59,315 nucleotides of DNA from Pseudomonadota bacterium (GTDB lineage Bacteria > Pseudomonadota > Alphaproteobacteria > Rhizobiales > Pleomorphomonadaceae). Positions 1 to 7,506 of the stretch are shown piece after piece (the first letter of the stretch is position 1; the number at the start of each line of letters is the position of its first letter). The position numbers and the translations under genes were made by a program. The notes under the pieces were generated by a model. That model was not told where the DNA came from. It did no database searches and saw only the letters and a program-made list of their open reading frames with translations. The DNA is taken from positions 1 to 59,315 of the forward strand of contig JAGSYU010000015.1 in the NCBI GenBank assembly GCA_018262575.1, given 5' to 3'.

Positions 1-746
1 AAGGCCCGGGCCTTGTCCGGTTCGCCATCCTCGATCTCAAGGGCGCGGGCGGTGAGCAGCACGGCCCGGAGCCGGGCGGTGTCGCCCTTGCCGATCAGAC
101 GGCCGGCGACGTTCTGGTCGAGCACGGCCAGCGCCTCGCCCCAGTTCCGGTCGGCGGAGAGGTAGTCCATCATGGCGGCGCCCGCCCACGGCAGCGCCGG
201 GTTTTCCTTCTGCGCTTCGGCAGCGAACTGGCGAGCCGCCGCCGCCTCACCAGCGCGCGTCGCCTCGATGTAGAGGCCACGCAAGCCAAGAAGACGCGTC
301 TCCGGTGTCTTCAACATGCGGGTAAAGGCCTGCCGAGCGGCGTCGCTCCGGCCTTCGAGCTGGGCGGCCTGGGCGGCGAGCAGCAGCCCCAGCGGTTCGC
401 CTTCGAGAAAGCGGTTGGCCTCGGCGGCCTCGCGCTGGGCGAGGCGATAGTCGCCCGAGCCGACGGCAATCATGCCGCGCGACAGGGCGCGATAGCCGCG
501 GTCGCGGCGGCGGCCGGCGAAATAGCTGCGAAGACCGCGCGGGGCGCGCCACAGGCCGGAGACGATCTTCCAGGCAACCAGCAGCACAACGGCGGCGACC
601 AGCAGCGCGACGATGACGACGCGCAGCGGCGGCGCCGCCGCTCCACCCGGCCAACTGACCGAAACGGCGACCGGCACCCCACCCATCCAATCGAAGGCGA
701 GGACGGCGAGAAACAGCGCGGCGACCGACAGGAGAATGCGGAACAT
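1..746 (-). CDS. hemY: HemY-family tetratricopeptide membrane protein (partial)
   Basis: Only the N-terminal 248 codons are present; the gene runs off the left edge of the window. The product begins MFRILLSVAALFLAV, a membrane segment, followed by a second hydrophobic stretch near residues 42-63, then Ala/Arg-rich helical repeats of the TPR type (about residues 95-248). This two-helix plus TPR layout is that of the proteobacterial HemY N-terminal family, found downstream of hemD and of unknown biochemical role; it is not the protoporphyrinogen oxidase that shares the name in Gram-positives. It starts 25 bases after the stop of the upstream HemD-Mic60 gene and is probably in its operon. Confidence 0.85.
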   Translation of the reverse strand, partial: MFRILLSVAALFLAVLAFDWMGGVPVAVSVSWPGGAAAPPLRVVIVALLVAAVVLLVAWKIVSGLWRAPRGLRSYFAGRRRDRGYRALSRGMIAVGSGDYRLAQREAAEANRFLEGEPLGLLLAAQAAQLEGRSDAARQAFTRMLKTPETRLLGLRGLYIEATRAGEAAAARQFAAEAQKENPALPWAGAAMMDYLSADRNWGEALAVLDQNVAGRLIGKGDTARLRAVLLTARALEIEDGEPDKARA

Positions 747-770: not shown

Positions 771-2843
771 TCAGTCGGCGGCAGGTACCGACAGGCGGTC
801 GACGATGCGAGCGGACAGCGCCTTTATGCCGGCGTCGGCGCGGACGCGGGCGTCGAGGTCGGCAAGCCACGCCTCGGCCGGCGGACGGGCCCAGGCTGGC
901 AAGCTGTCGGCCGCTGCCCGGGCGGCGGCGGCATCGCCGCGCTGAAGCGCCGCGCGCATCGCCTCGATGGCGCTCGACGCCGGATCGGCGGTGGCCGGAC
1001 CGGTCTCGCGATAGTTGACGAGCGATTTGGCGCTATCGACGAGGCCGTCCATCCAGCCGGTGCCGACCTCAACCGGCCGGCGGGCCAGCATGGAGTCCAC
1101 CGGCAACGTGGCCAGCAACTGGTCGCGGGTGGGTACGCCCTTGTCGGCGACCGCCCTGAGGTCCTCGAGGCCGGGCAGGTCGGGTGCGGCGGCGGCGACC
1201 ACGGCGATGTCGGTGGCAAATGGCAGGCCTGCGTCGATCTTGCCGGATAGCGAGGTGAGGGCGAGCGACAGGGCGGCGATCTCGCCGCCCTTCGGTGCAT
1301 TGGCGAGGCGCTCCTCGACGGCAGCAAGCCGGGCCGCTGCGTCGGCGTTGTCTGCCTTCAGCGCGTCGGTCGCCGACGTCAGGTCGGCAAGCCGGCCTTC
1401 GAGGGCGGCAATCGCCGCGGGATCAATGGTTGGCCGGGCGGCGGCGGCCTTCTCGTCGGCATCCAGGCGAGCGGCGAGGTCGTCGATGCGGGTGCCGAGC
1501 GGGGCGAGGTCAACGACGGGCGCCTCACGCCCCTCGAGGGTGGCGAGGCGGTTGGTGAGCGTTTCGGTCGCCGCCTGTCCCGCGGCAAGGCGATCGGCGA
1601 CCTCACCAAGGCGCGCCTCCAGCGTTGCCGGGTCGATACCGGCCGCGTCCGGCCGGTCGCCGGATTGCGGCAGCACGGCGAGCAGGAGAACGGCAGCTAT
1701 ACTGCCGCCGACGAGGCCGGCGCCGAGTAGGGGTAGCAATGCCCTGAGCTGGCTGGGGCGGTCGGTGCGTGGTGCAGTGCCGCCAGGTGCCGCTGTGTTG
1801 GTGGCAGCGTCGGTCTGCTCCATCACCGGGCTATCCGGTCCCGGCGGGTCACCGAAGGGGGGCTGTTCGTCGGGAGGCGCGATCGGCGGTATGTCCGGAC
1901 CCGGCGGCTCGGTGATCGGCTTTTCCGGCCCAGGCGGTTCGGGGGCTGGCGGCTCGCGTGGTGGGACCGGTGATTCGGCGGGTTTTGCCACCTCGCTCGC
2001 CTCGAGGTCGATGATCGGTGCCTTCGGGCGGTTGCGCCTGGCAGCGTCCTTGCGGTGGTCTTCGGATGTCATGGTCTCAAGTCCCTCCGCTTCATGCTCG
2101 CCGCCGACAGTTTCGCCCAGCCGGGCGGCAAGCGCAACGCTGGCTTCAACGAGAGCCGGGCCGGTCGGTTCCGCCGCCACGATCAGTTCGGTGACGCGGC
2201 CGCTGAGCGGTGCTGCCGCGGCCTCCGACAGCGCCGCAACGCCAAGGTGGGCGAGGCGGGGCGTCCAGTCCAGGGCGGTGAGGAGATCGACGAAGGCCTG
2301 CGCCGAGCGCCGCGACGCAACGATCAGTCCCTTGATGCGCCCGTCGGTAAAGGCGGCGGTGACTTCGGGAGCGAGGCCCTGTCGCGGTTCGGCGCGGTAA
2401 AGTTCGGCCTCGGCCACCGCGACATCGAGCCCGGCGAGTCGACCGGCGATGTCGCCGGCCTTGTCGCGGCCGCCAGCATGGACCAGGCGATGGAAGCCGG
2501 TCCGGGCGATGAGGTCGACGAGATCGTCGGCGTTGCCGTCGGCCGAGCGGACGTCGACGAAACCGGCGGCGCGGGCGTCGTGAGCGGTGCCGGCACCGAC
2601 GGCGATCACCGGTAGCCGCGTGAGGGCTTCGATGCCTTTGGCGCCCCTCAGGATCGCCACCGTCTGGCGCGAGGTGAGAACGAGTGCCTCGGCGTCGGGA
2701 TCGGCCGCCCGGACCCGGCCGGCCGGGTCGTCCACCGGTTCGATGGTCAGCATGGGTTCGGCGAGCGCCGTCACGCCGCGCGCGGCGAGCGCTGTCACCA
2801 TGTCGCTCGCCTGCGGTTCGGGACGGAGGACGAGAAGGACCAT
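771..2843 (-). CDS. hemD: Uroporphyrinogen-III synthase fused to Mic60/mitofilin-like protein
   Basis: One uninterrupted 690-codon frame joins two proteins that are usually separate. Residues 1 to about 245 are a HemD domain (ring closure and D-ring inversion of hydroxymethylbilane, cytosolic). After a linker the sequence becomes a proline-rich acidic segment with repeated PPGP motifs (about 290-340), a single membrane helix (about 367-391), a long Ala/Glu coiled coil (about 405-535) and a C-terminal mitofilin-type helical domain (about 540-690). Alphaproteobacterial Mic60, which shapes inner-membrane invaginations, is known to lie beside haem genes. Met258 (start at 2072) is preceded by GGAGGG ten bases upstream, so the Mic60 half may also be made alone (433 residues). 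Upstream hemC ends 4 bases before this start. Confidence 0.88.
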   Translation of the reverse strand: MVLLVLRPEPQASDMVTALAARGVTALAEPMLTIEPVDDPAGRVRAADPDAEALVLTSRQTVAILRGAKGIEALTRLPVIAVGAGTAHDARAAGFVDVRSADGNADDLVDLIARTGFHRLVHAGGRDKAGDIAGRLAGLDVAVAEAELYRAEPRQGLAPEVTAAFTDGRIKGLIVASRRSAQAFVDLLTALDWTPRLAHLGVAALSEAAAAPLSGRVTELIVAAEPTGPALVEASVALAARLGETVGGEHEAEGLETMTSEDHRKDAARRNRPKAPIIDLEASEVAKPAESPVPPREPPAPEPPGPEKPITEPPGPDIPPIAPPDEQPPFGDPPGPDSPVMEQTDAATNTAAPGGTAPRTDRPSQLRALLPLLGAGLVGGSIAAVLLLAVLPQSGDRPDAAGIDPATLEARLGEVADRLAAGQAATETLTNRLATLEGREAPVVDLAPLGTRIDDLAARLDADEKAAAARPTIDPAAIAALEGRLADLTSATDALKADNADAAARLAAVEERLANAPKGGEIAALSLALTSLSGKIDAGLPFATDIAVVAAAAPDLPGLEDLRAVADKGVPTRDQLLATLPVDSMLARRPVEVGTGWMDGLVDSAKSLVNYRETGPATADPASSAIEAMRAALQRGDAAAARAAADSLPAWARPPAEAWLADLDARVRADAGIKALSARIVDRLSVPAAD
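2083..2088 (-). promoter_or_regulatory. Internal Shine-Dalgarno before Met258 of the HemD-Mic60 ORF
   Basis: On the minus strand GGAGGG lies ten bases before an in-frame ATG at 2072-2070. The residues that follow (MTSEDHRKDAARRN) look like a normal N-terminus of the stand-alone mitofilin-like protein. This would allow internal initiation, giving the membrane protein without the HemD domain. The motif is visible; its use is inferred. Confidence 0.5.
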
Positions 2844-2846
2844 GGT

Positions 2847-3767
2847 TCAGCTCCCGCCGAAGAAGCCGGGACCGGCCAGCGCGGCGAGACGGGTACCGAG
2901 CCGGTCGCCGACGCCCTCGGGGTCGGCGCCGCTCTCCCGTCCCTCATGAGCAACGCGGCCGTCCGGCGTCAGGATCAGGCCGTGGAGATCGACATGGTGT
3001 TCGGTCGCCACGGCATAGCCGGCGATGGGCGTGCGGCAGGAGCCGTCGAGCCGGGCGAGATAGGCTCGCTCACAGGCGAGTGCCAGCGCCGTCGGCGCGT
3101 GGTGGATCGGTGCCAGGAGGTCGGCGATCCTGGCGTCGTCCGCGCGGGTCTCGATGCCGATCGCCCCCTGGCCGACGGCCGGCGGGAAGGCGTCGATGTC
3201 GAGGATCTCGGTGGCGACTTCCAGCATGCCGAGCCGCTTCAGGCCGGCCACGGCGAGCAATGTCGCGTCGGCGACGCCTTCGCCAAGCTTGCGGAGCCGC
3301 GTCTGGACGTTGCCACGATAGGGGATGACGACGACGTCGGGCCGTAGGCGGCGGACGATCGCCGCCCGTCTCAACGAGGCGGTGCCGACCACGGCGCCAT
3401 CCGGCAGGTCGGACAGCGAGCGGTATTTCAGCGACACGAAGGCGTCGCGGGCGTCCTCGCGTTCGAGGAAATGGCCGAGCACCAGGCCATCGGGCAGCGC
3501 CGTCGGCATGTCCTTGGAGGAATGGACGGCGATGTCGAGTGCACCGTTCAAAAGCCCGGCTTCGATCTCCTCGGTGAACAGGCCCTTGCCGCCCACCTCG
3601 GCGAGCGGCCGGTCCTGGATGCGGTCGCCGGCCGTGCTGATCGGCACGATCTCGACCTCCGGCGCCGACGCGCCCCAGGCGGCGATCAACCGGTCGCGCA
3701 CCTCGTGGGCCTGGGCGAGGGCGAGCGGGCTGCCGCGGGTGCCGAGACGGATGGGTTTTGGTTGCAC
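2847..3767 (-). CDS. hemC: Porphobilinogen deaminase (hydroxymethylbilane synthase)
   Basis: A 306-residue protein that polymerises four porphobilinogens into hydroxymethylbilane, the substrate of the HemD domain encoded next. Family motifs are clear: [13 protein letters not shown] near the N-terminus, HSSKDMP, GTASLRR, and [10 protein letters not shown], in which Cys244 binds the dipyrromethane cofactor. The start chosen is GTG at 3767, just before [12 protein letters not shown], with GGGGAG seven bases upstream; the frame stays open much further upstream but that part is antisense to tsaD and would add about 420 unrelated residues. It is transcribed divergently from tsaD and heads the hemC-hemD/mic60-hemY run. 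Confidence 0.95.
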
Positions 3768-3959
3768 CGGTTCGCTCCCCGTGTGATAGAGCCGTGAAAC
3801 GAAGGCATCGGCCGGCCAACGGTCGTAGACGGCGGCGAATCGCCCCGAATGTCTCGCCTTGCCATGGCAACACTTGGACCATGGGACGCCGCGAGGCAAC
3901 GTGTTCTTGGGTCTCGCCTTTCCAGGCGGACCGACCCCGGCAAAGATGGATTGACCAGG
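3768..3959. promoter_or_regulatory. Divergent hemC / tsaD promoter region
   Basis: A 192-base gap between two divergent gene starts, so promoters for both must lie here. It contains the 12-base palindrome TTGCCATGGCAA at 3859-3870. I cannot assign a regulator or convincing -35/-10 pairs. Confidence 0.45.
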
Positions 3960-5057
3960 ATGGACGACCTCAGGGATATCGTCGTTCTCGGCCTCGAAAG
4001 CTCCTGCGACGAGACCGCTGCTGCCGTCGTGCGGCGGCGCGCCGACGGCAGCGGTGACATTGTCTCCAACGTTGTCTTCTCGCAGATCGAGGAACATGCA
4101 GCCTTCGGCGGCGTGGTGCCGGAGATCGCCGCTCGCGCCCATGTCGAGGTGATGGATGGCCTCGTCAAGGCGGCGCTCGCCGAGGCGGGGCTCTCGCTTG
4201 TCGATGTCGACGCAGTGGCGGCAACGGCTGGCCCTGGCCTTATCGGTGGCGTGCTGGTCGGCCTCACCACCGCCAAGGCGCTGGCCTATGCGGCACGCAA
4301 GCCGCTGATCGCCGTCAACCATCTTGAGGGACACGCGCTCACCGCGCGCCTCACCCACGGCGTCGAGTTTCCCTACCTGCTGCTCCTGGTCTCCGGTGGT
4401 CACAGCCAGATCCTGAGAGTTGATGGCGTCGGCCGCTACACCCGCATTGGCACCACCATCGACGACGCGCTCGGCGAGGCCTTCGACAAGACGGCCAAGC
4501 TGCTGCAGCTCGGCTATCCCGGTGGACCGGCGGTGGAAAAGATGGCGGCCGAAGGTAATCCCGGTCGTGTCGCGCTGCCCCGGCCGCTCCTTGGCCGCGA
4601 CGAACCCAACTTCTCCTTTTCCGGCCTCAAGACGGCGGTGCGCCATGAGGCGGAGGCGCTGGCGCCGCTGTCGCGGCAGGACGTTGCCGACATTTGCGCG
4701 TCCTTCCAGGCGGCGGTCTCCGACGTGGTGGCCGACCGCGTTCGCCTTGCCGTCGGGCGCTTTGCCGGAACGCTTGCCGACGGGCGTGAGCCGGTGTTGG
4801 TGGTGGCCGGCGGCGTTGCCGCCAACAAGGCGATCCGCAGCCGGCTCGAGACGGTGATGGCTGGCCTCAACGGTCGCCTCGTCGTGCCGCCCGGCAACCT
4901 CTGTACCGACAACGGCGCCATGATCGCCTGGGCCGGCGCCGAGCGGCTGGTGCTGGGTCTCACCGACGGCTTCGAGGTGGCGGCCCGGCCGCGCTGGCCG
5001 CTCGACGATATCGCCGTGCCGCTCGTCGGCCACGGCCGACTGGGGGCAAAGGCATGA
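3960..5057 (+). CDS. tsaD: tRNA N6-adenosine threonylcarbamoyltransferase
   Basis: A 365-residue Kae1/TsaD protein that transfers the threonylcarbamoyl group to A37 of ANN-decoding tRNAs, together with TsaB and TsaE. The N-terminal [16 protein letters not shown] motif starts the ASKHA fold; the iron ligands are the HxxxH pair His121/His125 in VNHLEGH, and the C-terminal [10 protein letters not shown] motif is present. The start is ATG 3960 because family homology begins at once after it; the frame is open 37 codons further upstream, but without homology. It overlaps gpsA by four bases (ATGA), indicating translational coupling. Confidence 0.95.
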
Positions 5058-6037
5058 GTGACTCCATCGGCGTCTATGGTGCCGGCGCCTGGGGCTCGGC
5101 GTTGGCGCTGACGGCGGCGCGGGCCGGGGCCAAGGTCATTCTCTGTGGCCGGAACGCCGAGGAGGCGGAGACACTGAACGCCACGCGGCGAAGTCCGCAT
5201 CTGCCGGGTGCGATCTTCCCGGCGGCGGTGACGGCGCGCGCCGATCCCGCCTCGCTGGCCGGTATCGATCTGCTGCTGCTCGCCACGCCCGCCCAGGCCT
5301 GCCGCTCGGCAGCGGCGGCACTTGCCGGTGTGGTCGGGCTTGAAACGGTGATCGTCTCCTGCGCCAAGGGCATCGAGCAGACCACTGGCGCACGTCCGTC
5401 CCAAGCGATCGCCGCGGCCCTGCCCGGCCGGCGGGTCGCCGTGCTGTCGGGGCCGGGCTTTGCCGACGACGTGGCGCGCGGCCTGCCGACGGCGGTTACC
5501 GTCGCCGCGGATGATGCGGTGCTTGCCGACGCCATCGCCCGCCGGCTGGCTGGCCCGACTTTCCGGCCCTATGCTGCCACTGACGTTGCCGGTGTCGAAC
5601 TGGGCGGTGCGCTGAAGAACGTGCTGGCCATCGCCGCCGGCATTGTGTCCGGCCGCGCGCTCGGTGCTTCGGCGCAGGCAGCGGTCATCACGCGTGGCTT
5701 TGTCGAGATGCGCCGGCTTGCCGCCGCCTTCGGCGCGGAGGCGGAGACGTTGATGGGACTCTCCGGTTTTGGCGACCTGATGCTGACCTGCTCGTCTGTC
5801 CAGTCGCGCAACTATTCCTTCGGCCTCGGCATCGGCCGTGGAGAATCGACGGCGAGTTTCGGCAAGCTTGCCGAGGGCGCCGCCACCGTCGGCATCGCCG
5901 TTCAGAAGGCGACCGAGTTCTCCGTCGAGGTGCCTATCATGGCGGCGGTGGCCGAAGTGCTGGCAGGCTGTCTCTCCGTTGACGAAGCCATCGATCGGCT
6001 GATGGCTCGACCGCTCAAGCGGGAAAACGTCATCTGA
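5054..6037 (+). CDS. gpsA: NAD(P)-dependent glycerol-3-phosphate dehydrogenase
   Basis: A 327-residue soluble enzyme reducing dihydroxyacetone phosphate to sn-glycerol-3-phosphate for phospholipid synthesis. The Rossmann motif GAGAWG is at residues 9-14; the catalytic lysine is Lys188 in [12 protein letters not shown]; the C-terminal helical domain carries the family's [12 protein letters not shown]. It starts inside the tsaD stop codon. In many Rhizobiales, as I recall, YciI and EVE genes follow gpsA; here those genes sit near 35 kb instead. Confidence 0.95.
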
Positions 6038-6048
6038 ACTCGGCCGGC

Positions 6049-6065
6049 CGTTGCATTTTGCAACG
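6049..6065. terminator. Stem-loop after gpsA
   Basis: CGTTGCA / TGCAACG form a perfect 7-bp stem with a 3-base loop, 11 bases past the gpsA stop. There is no downstream T run, so it could be a terminator or an operator. Confidence 0.4.
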
Positions 6066-6092
6066 CAGACCGGGCTGCACTGCCGAGACAAT

Positions 6093-6134
6093 CAACATAT
6101 AGGCGGCTTATTGCCTAATCTATACCGTATGTTG
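6093..6134. repeat. Nested inverted repeats in the gpsA/ferredoxin-reductase gap
   Basis: Outer arms CAACATA (6093-6099) and TATGTTG (6128-6134) enclose inner arms TAGGC (6100-6104) and GCCTA (6113-6117). The segment is AT-rich compared with its surroundings. It lies between converging genes, so a bidirectional terminator is the simplest reading. Confidence 0.4.
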
Positions 6135-6294
6135 AAGTCGGCAAAATTGCGGCCGGAAACCGAATCGCAACCTTGATCGACGAAACTTCGGGGCGTCGGC
6201 ATCAGGTCGCGCGTAGCCGGCCGGTCCGGATGGACACCGGGTCCGCCCTCGTAATGTTCTTGCGTCGAGGGTGGCCCGAGCCCCGTCTCTCTGA

Positions 6295-7506
6295 TTACAC
6301 CAGCAGTTCCTTGAGCGGCTTCGTCTCGACGTCGGCTCGTGAAACGCGCCTGCCGGCTTCCAGAAGCTTCTTGGCGGTGACGAAGGCGGCTGGGTAGTTG
6401 AGGGCATCGACGGCGATCATCACTCCGCCCGAAAAGTACCAGACGGCATGGCTGCCGGGGCGCGGTCCCTCTGTCGCCAACGTTGTGTCGTAGCCATGGT
6501 GAAGGCCGGCAATTTGCAGCTTGGCATCATACTGGTCCGACCAGAACCACGGCTGCGGCATGTAGGCACCACCACCGCCGATCAGCGTCGCCGCCGCCGC
6601 TTCCCCCTGATCAAAGGCGTTCTGTACCGATTCGAGGCGGATCAGGCGGTCACCATAGGGAAAGCGTGCGCAGTCGCCGATGGCCAGGATGCCGGGGTCG
6701 GAGGTGCGGGAAAACTCGTCGACAAGAATGCCGTCGTCGACGGTGAGGCCGGCCATTTCGGCCAAGCCGGCGTTCGGCGCAACCCCGATGCCAACGACGG
6801 CGAGATCGGCGGCGATCGTTCGGCCGTCGGCAAGCTCGGCGCCGGTGAGACGGCCATCGGCCCCGACAAGGCGGGCGATGGCGGTGCCTTCCAGAATGTC
6901 GACGCCGTGGCTCCGGTGCAGGTCGCGGACGAGGTCGGCTGTTCCAGCGGCGGCGACGCGTTTTAGAATGCGGTCGGCGAGTTCCACGACGGTGACCTCA
7001 AGACCGCGCGTTCTCGCCACCGCCGCCGTCTCGAGGCCGACGTAGCCACCGCCAATGACGATCAGCCGGCGTCCGGGCTGGAAGTCGGCCATCAGCGCGT
7101 CGGCGTCGGCCTTGCCGCGCAAGGTGAAGACGCCCTGGAGATCGCCGCCGATCGTCGCCGGCAGGCGGCGTGGCGTGGCGCCAGTGGCGAGGACCAGGGT
7201 CGCGTAGGGAAGATCCAGGCCGTCGTCGAGGCGAACGGTTCGCCGTGTCCGGTCGACCGCAACGGCGCGCCGGCTGGTCAGCACGGTGACGGCGTTGGTC
7301 TCGTACCAGGCCGGCGGCTTCAGCAGCAGCCGGTCGAAGGTTGCCTCGCCGACAAGGTATTTCTTGGAGAGCGGCGGCCGCTGGTAGGGCAACACCGGCT
7401 CGTCGCCGATGATCGTCACCGGCCTGTCCGAGCCGAGGGTCCTGAGCTTGCCGGCGAAGGCCGCCGCCGCCTGGCCGGCGCCGATGATGACGATGGGGTC
7501 GTGCAT
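6295..7506 (-). CDS. FAD-dependent ferredoxin/rubredoxin reductase-like oxidoreductase
   Basis: A 403-residue pyridine-nucleotide-disulphide oxidoreductase of the class I ferredoxin reductase type (rhodocoxin, putidaredoxin or rubredoxin reductase relatives). It has the N-terminal FAD-binding GAGQAA motif (residues 9-14), the PYQRPPLSKKYL segment, a second dinucleotide motif IGGGYVGLE in mid-protein for NAD(P)H, the GDCARFP FAD motif, and a C-terminal reductase domain with WFWSDQYD. It would pass electrons from NAD(P)H to a small iron-sulphur protein, but no ferredoxin, P450 or dioxygenase gene is adjacent, so its partner is unknown. It is a single-gene unit. Confidence 0.88.
   Translation of the reverse strand: MHDPIVIIGAGQAAAAFAGKLRTLGSDRPVTIIGDEPVLPYQRPPLSKKYLVGEATFDRLLLKPPAWYETNAVTVLTSRRAVAVDRTRRTVRLDDGLDLPYATLVLATGATPRRLPATIGGDLQGVFTLRGKADADALMADFQPGRRLIVIGGGYVGLETAAVARTRGLEVTVVELADRILKRVAAAGTADLVRDLHRSHGVDILEGTAIARLVGADGRLTGAELADGRTIAADLAVVGIGVAPNAGLAEMAGLTVDDGILVDEFSRTSDPGILAIGDCARFPYGDRLIRLESVQNAFDQGEAAAATLIGGGGAYMPQPWFWSDQYDAKLQIAGLHHGYDTTLATEGPRPGSHAVWYFSGGVMIAVDALNYPAAFVTAKKLLEAGRRVSRADVETKPLKELLV

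Follow-up and report, generated by a model that had tools for sequence, protein, structure and literature searches.

Does the uroporphyrinogen-III synthase (HemD) of this bacterium really share one open frame with a Mic60/mitofilin-like membrane protein, and if so, which proteins does such a gene yield? The window, by which we mean the whole stretch of DNA analysed (59,315 nucleotides), carries near its beginning a long minus-strand frame in which the two appear to be joined. Sequence comparisons across the genus, the order and the class lead us to propose that this one gene probably has two products, a membrane-tethered HemD fusion and a free Mic60 made by internal initiation.

A single open frame for HemD and Mic60

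The frame, its parts and its hem neighbours lie in the window as follows.

771 to 2843, minus strand: fused hemD-mic60 frame, 690 aa, with its ATG start at 2843 and the stop codon (773-771) included
2145 to 2804, minus strand: HemD domain (PF02602, HEM4), residues 14-233
2046 to 2123, minus strand: synonymously constrained stretch across the junction, codons 241-266 of the codon alignment
2084 to 2088, minus strand: GGAGG, Shine-Dalgarno-like, 11 nt upstream of the internal ATG
2070 to 2072, minus strand: internal ATG, codon 258 (Met258), presumed start of a free Mic60 of 433 aa
1779 to 1976, minus strand: proline-rich linker, about residues 290-355, from the translation; low pLDDT in the model
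1668 to 1739, minus strand: single membrane helix, about residues 369-392, by hydropathy
1293 to 1634, minus strand: helical, presumably coiled-coil region, about residues 404-517, from helices in the model and coiled-coil proteins among weak matches
774 to 1292, minus strand: mitofilin-family C-terminal domain, residues 518-690, by profile comparison
2847 to 3767, minus strand: hemC, upstream gene of the presumed operon
3 to 746, minus strand: N-terminal part of hemY, downstream gene, truncated by the contig end

Translation of the minus strand reveals no stop codon between the domains, and the frame reads in the order HEM4, short linker, Met258, proline-rich stretch, one helix and helical C-terminal half. 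The original prediction of HemD and a Mic60/mitofilin protein in a single frame is borne out by the HEM4 match, the mitofilin profile match and the open junction, and all the parts that it described behind HemD (proline-rich linker, one membrane helix, helical or coiled-coil part and mitofilin-type C-terminus) are found in the 690-aa frame. A stop missed near 2073-2090 had been raised as a possible flaw. There is none, and the site is the old mic60 start, with its ATG at 2072 and its GGAGG at 2088-2084. The assembly is 86% complete and consists of 295 contigs, of which the window is one, so an assembly or sequencing error that conceals a stop or a frameshift deserves mention, but it has practically no chance of being the explanation: it is refuted by the same open frame in 10 other genomes, which include the single-contig genome G017 and named isolates such as P. 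oryzae DSM 16300 and P. koreensis DSM 23070. With the same architecture and an open junction in all 10 of these other genomes of the genus code, and so in 11 altogether, and separately in both Chthonobacter genomes, chance and artefact are excluded. The HemD-Mic60 fusion is real.

On the plus strand, tsaD and gpsA diverge head to head from the hem genes. At 3849-7506 of the window these two genes stand as described for the class, and the next identified gene is a reductase on the opposite strand (7506-6295); the accessible part of PMC7641849 describes YciI and EVE genes as frequent downstream of gpsA.

The HemD half

The HEM4 model (PF02602) matches residues 14-233 with an E value of 1.7e-29 and 103 bits against a cut-off of 27.5, in the expected context of hemC upstream and hemY downstream. 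Among NCBIfam models the best for the window's HemD is PRK09189, which scores 82.3 bits against an equivalog cut-off of 223, a threshold that two further HEM4-positive fusions from the class likewise do not reach (150.3 and 153 bits). A single HEM4 gene over the cut-off is present in 13 of the 14 genomes of the genus code, the fourteenth (G016) being cut at the locus, and the second HEM4 match in the window's own genome reaches 19.4 bits, below the cut-off. With one HEM4 gene over the cut-off in each of these 13 genomes, uroporphyrinogen-III synthase would be expected to come from the fusion or from a fragment of it. A membrane-tethered HemD is therefore plausible if the domain stays attached, although its release by proteolysis could be conceived. 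Hydropathy analysis reveals one strong hydrophobic stretch, at about residues 369-392, with three K/R residues in the 15 positions before its top-scoring 19 residues and one in the 15 positions after them. Under the positive-inside rule, this greater positive charge before the helix (three versus one) agrees with HemD lying inside.

The C-terminal half belongs to the mitofilin family

The Pfam Mitofilin model (PF09731) gave no direct match to the window protein or to five relatives scanned, and a scan of the window's whole genome with it found nothing. Within the class, PF09731 matched in 32 of 58 genomes searched, 26 of them over the cut-off, including seven fused frames. Two profiles were compared. 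The first (A3) was built from the C-terminal domain of the window protein and 12 relatives, and the second (A4) from eight C-terminal domains (those of the seven fused frames and one split protein), all eight of which match PF09731. Alignment of the two by hhalign gave a probability of 99.3% and an E value of 1.6e-20 over 175 columns. When the C-terminal profile was compared with the Protein Data Bank, its top match was 7pv1, in which MIC60 is joined to MIC19 (E 0.005); a profile of the entire Mic60 part matches 7pv1 with an E value of 0.057, ranked after coiled-coil proteins that match another region. The AlphaFold model has a mean pLDDT of 63, is good mainly in the C-terminal domain and places long helices after the membrane helix; Foldseek with this model returned no match at E 0.001. 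On profile comparison, the C-terminal half is a mitofilin-family protein, homologous to the mitofilin signature domain.

HemX was considered as another identity for this half and was rejected, as PF04375 (HemX) is found nowhere in the genome at E 0.001 and the mitofilin and HemX profiles (A4 versus A6) align weakly, with a probability of 17% and only 24 shared columns. The window protein also has no match at E 0.1 to NF005411, the HemD/HemX family. The stretch that they share is a short motif resembling LVxxRR.

Distribution of fused and split genes

The genus code of the window comprises 14 genomes, mostly of Pleomorphomonas with one of Oryzibacter. The fused frame is present in 11 of the 13 that could be assessed, the window's included, and none of these 11 has another HEM4 gene over the cut-off; the genes are split in the Oryzibacter genome (G011) and in one MAG (G018), while G016 is the genome cut at the locus. 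Both Chthonobacter genomes are fused, and the four other genera of the family, each represented by one genome, are split. The search of the order covered 121 genomes, of which 110 matched; 29 loci (L050-L078) were rescanned, 27 of them had a HemD frame and one of these 27 was fused (G045). In the class, 161 of 240 genomes searched matched, again including the window's, and we followed up 40 of them, those in which the HemD match listed falls inside an open frame of 487 aa or more. HemD and mitofilin share one frame in 35 of these, seven of which contributed rows to the second mitofilin profile, so that their match to it is built in. The fused frame of L097 extends past the contig end. The remaining long-frame loci are three pairs of split neighbours (L104, L120 and L130), a HemD with a 252-aa C-terminal extension that has a hydrophobic stretch and no detectable mitofilin domain (L131), and a locus without a mitofilin frame in the stretch examined (L129). 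All 20 comparison loci with short frames have split neighbours. Among the matches listed, no fewer than 35 of the 160 matched genomes of the class besides the window's thus have a fusion, which rules out an oddity of one genus. The original prediction had taken separate neighbouring genes as the norm; this is upheld in the order, with one fused locus in 27, but in the class fusion is not rare.

In the single-contig genome G164 the HemD-mitofilin locus occurs three times near the contig ends (contig C1, 148-5696 and 4596528-4599032), with two of the three copies inverted and side by side, perhaps an assembly artefact. A search of plasmids for named fusions returned 10 records, in all of which the match was to part of HemD and spanned less than 80% of the query.

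Number of fusion events

In a family tree built from hemC+hemY, with G045 as the root, the 11 fused Pleomorphomonas group in one clade (support 99), and the split G018 (100) and G011 (61) fall outside it. Chthonobacter (100) stands apart from Pleomorphomonas, beside the split G006 (71). This suggests two fusions within the family, on a tree in which some supports are low. A second tree, of HemD+mitofilin, has 72 labelled loci, 43 fused and 29 split, among them five of the 11 fused Pleomorphomonas. It implies at least 19 changes between the fused and the split state; with low support on many branches and loci chosen for being fused or split, this number is rough and does not distinguish gain from loss. 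Both states occur within single families, for example f1, f67 (L103/L136), f144 (L108/L137), f155 (L116/L138), f164 (L098/L139) and f176 (L114/L140).

Such frequent interchange, together with the families that hold both states, is what would be expected if the fusion were merely tolerated, with HemD clipped off or the two halves acting independently and the fused state coming and going without benefit. We consider this unlikely, since the fused state has been kept in 11 genomes despite a substantial synonymous divergence (mean 0.364). That hemD and mic60 have become joined more than once, with hemD in front, also suggests a link between them, although their neighbourhood in the operon could by itself explain it.

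The internal mic60 start is kept

In Pleomorphomonas and Chthonobacter, each of the 13 fused junctions that were read has GGAGG, exactly 11 nt and then ATG, a spacing on the long side. The split mic60 of L087 has the same GGAGG-11 nt-ATG arrangement, and its ATG overlaps the TGA stop of hemD; in the split Oryzibacter mic60 (L090) no GGAGG was found in the 26 nt before the ATG. The long spacing and the Oryzibacter gene both speak against an internal start.

A codon alignment of the 11 fused Pleomorphomonas genes, which differ synonymously by 0.364 on average for each comparable pair of codons, reveals what is conserved at this site. Codons 241-266 contain 43 synonymous differences where 389 are expected (observed/expected 0.111). 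So low a value was never reached in 20,000 random column sets; for codons 252-257 alone, 11 of 20,000 sets were as low. The bounds 241-266 were picked after the profile had been viewed and randomly scattered columns make a lenient null, so that ranking among contiguous windows is the fairer test. By that ranking the lowest windows of 11, 15, 20 and 26 codons (of 719, 717, 716 and 710, respectively) all fall within codons 241-266, which form the most constrained long stretch of the Pleomorphomonas gene at synonymous sites. Among windows of seven codons, three share the minimum of zero: two at the junction and one at codons 9-15, which lie near the gene's own start and are a positive control for the test. 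Uncommon codons are frozen at the junction, such as GGA (12% of Gly codons in these genes) and CTT (13% of Leu). Residues 250, 251 and 259 vary while the third bases of codons 251 and 259 are fixed, and in P. koreensis residues 253-257 change from EGLET to EDTST with both GGAGG and ATG kept. By these comparisons it is the nucleotides, not the residues, that are conserved at the internal start, and the constraint covers both the Shine-Dalgarno sequence and the start codon, as would be expected of an internal in-frame start. With the mic60 start kept under nucleotide-level constraint, a free Mic60 of 433 aa is predicted beside the 690-aa fusion.

The same conservation might be read in another way, in which the 690-aa protein is made alone and the kept Shine-Dalgarno sequence and ATG act as a pause that helps HemD to fold before the helix emerges. 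The constraint does reach upstream of the Shine-Dalgarno sequence: it begins about 35 nt before GGAGG, exceeding the needs of a ribosome-binding site. A pause, however, requires no ATG, yet Met258 is present in 13 of 13 fused junctions while its neighbours vary; the 11-nt spacing is identical to that of the mic60 start in the split L087; and the constraint persists into the first codons past the ATG. Fusions elsewhere do indicate that a single product may be workable. We compared 37 other frames in which HemD carries an extension, 36 of them from the class (including L131) and the other from G045. Thirty of these lack an in-frame linker ATG preceded by a Shine-Dalgarno match of at least 5 bases, and seven of the 37 have no linker Met at all, one of which (L107) has a GTG with a good Shine-Dalgarno sequence. 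The seven frames that do have such an ATG compare with 4.0 expected by synonymous shuffling. These other fusions thus mostly look single-product, and those of Pleomorphomonas and Chthonobacter dual-product. L102, with AAGGAG before an ATG (shuffling expectation 0.01), and L107, with AAGGAG before its GTG, may be further kept starts. In view of the junctions themselves, we regard a fusion without a second product in Pleomorphomonas as improbable.

A GC-rich hairpin can be drawn immediately upstream of the internal Shine-Dalgarno sequence (2096-2133 of the window). G-U changes preserve pairing of its stem in most Pleomorphomonas sequences, and the stem is broken in P. koreensis. Its z scores range from -0.73 to -2.51 in five sequences and reach +0.39 in P. 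koreensis, with no changes on both sides of the stem, and as a regulatory RNA element it is weak.

A proposed two-product gene

The production of a tethered HemD together with a free Mic60 is our best reading of both the open frame and the kept start. In this proposal, hemD and mic60 were initially overlapping or adjacent in a hemC-hemD-mic60-hemY operon, and a small change near the end of hemD would have brought it into frame with mic60 in the ancestor of the fused Pleomorphomonas; a separate small change would have joined the same two genes in Chthonobacter. Translation from the hemD start would give the 690-aa protein with its N-terminal uroporphyrinogen-III synthase, which the Mic60 helix may anchor to the inner membrane on its cytoplasmic side, while the helical part and the mitofilin domain would lie outside. 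Ribosomes would still initiate at the internal site and make the free 433-aa Mic60, and we propose that it is because they do so that the internal ribosome-binding site and ATG are under selection. One gene would thus provide a tethered HemD and an extra, free Mic60, which may co-assemble with the fusion.

Gene fusion is a classic hint that two proteins work together. In mitochondria, as far as the accessible parts of PMC9133952 and PMC12519212 describe, MICOS associates with ferrochelatase and supports haem synthesis; the association is described for the mouse, human and yeast enzymes, and in yeast without Mic60 haem synthesis is impaired upon ferrochelatase overexpression (PMC9133952). This association makes a functional tie between HemD and Mic60 plausible, although we infer the tie, as we do any benefit for haem synthesis. 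A broader idea, which we put forward tentatively and think doubtful, is that Mic60 has since ancient times scaffolded tetrapyrrole enzymes at the membrane, as a forerunner of the MICOS-ferrochelatase association. The repeated fusion across the class ancestral to mitochondria would then be its trace, and in Pleomorphomonas and Chthonobacter internal initiation within one gene would set how much Mic60 is enzyme-loaded relative to how much is free. If the joining of HemD and Mic60 recurs in Alphaproteobacteria, the tie between the cristae organiser and haem synthesis may predate mitochondria and could be tested in culturable bacteria. The kept internal start would also offer a natural series from split genes through a dual-product fusion to an apparently obligate one.

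Comparison with known systems

A literature search found no paper on a HemD-Mic60 fusion; most subscription journals lie outside its coverage, so absence from print is not established. The Mic60 proteins of Rhodobacter (Cereibacter) and Paracoccus have a membrane helix and a coiled coil. In the accessible parts of PMC12136173 and PMC8633786 they deform membranes in vitro and partially rescue yeast without Mic60; they have a C-terminal mitofilin domain, as here, but are treated there as free proteins. The operon described for Alphaproteobacteria in PMC7641849, hemC-hemD-IMMP/mitofilin-hemY head to head with tsaD-gpsA, has the same genes in the same order as the window, but with hemD and mic60 separate, and the accessible text mentions no fusion; it also calls HemX and mitofilin related. 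A parallel fusion of HemD with HemX is already known as a curated NCBIfam family, NF005411 (PRK06975.1), in which HemD likewise comes first with a membrane protein behind it in one frame; its second half, however, is HemX (PF04375), whereas that of the window protein is mitofilin-family. Three long-frame candidates were taken from outside the class (L179, L180 and L181), of which L179, from another class of the phylum, was scanned and is a HemD/HemX member of NF005411 (E 1.1e-262). In G397, where HemX lies in a 622-aa frame, the frames were read by eye as separate hemD and HemX and not as a fusion. Close counterparts are the 35 other fused loci of the class and G045, where a single frame likewise encodes HemD, a hydrophobic helix and a mitofilin domain. 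They differ at the junction, where a linker ATG with a Shine-Dalgarno sequence is present in 7 of the 37 other frames but in all 13 junctions of Pleomorphomonas and Chthonobacter.
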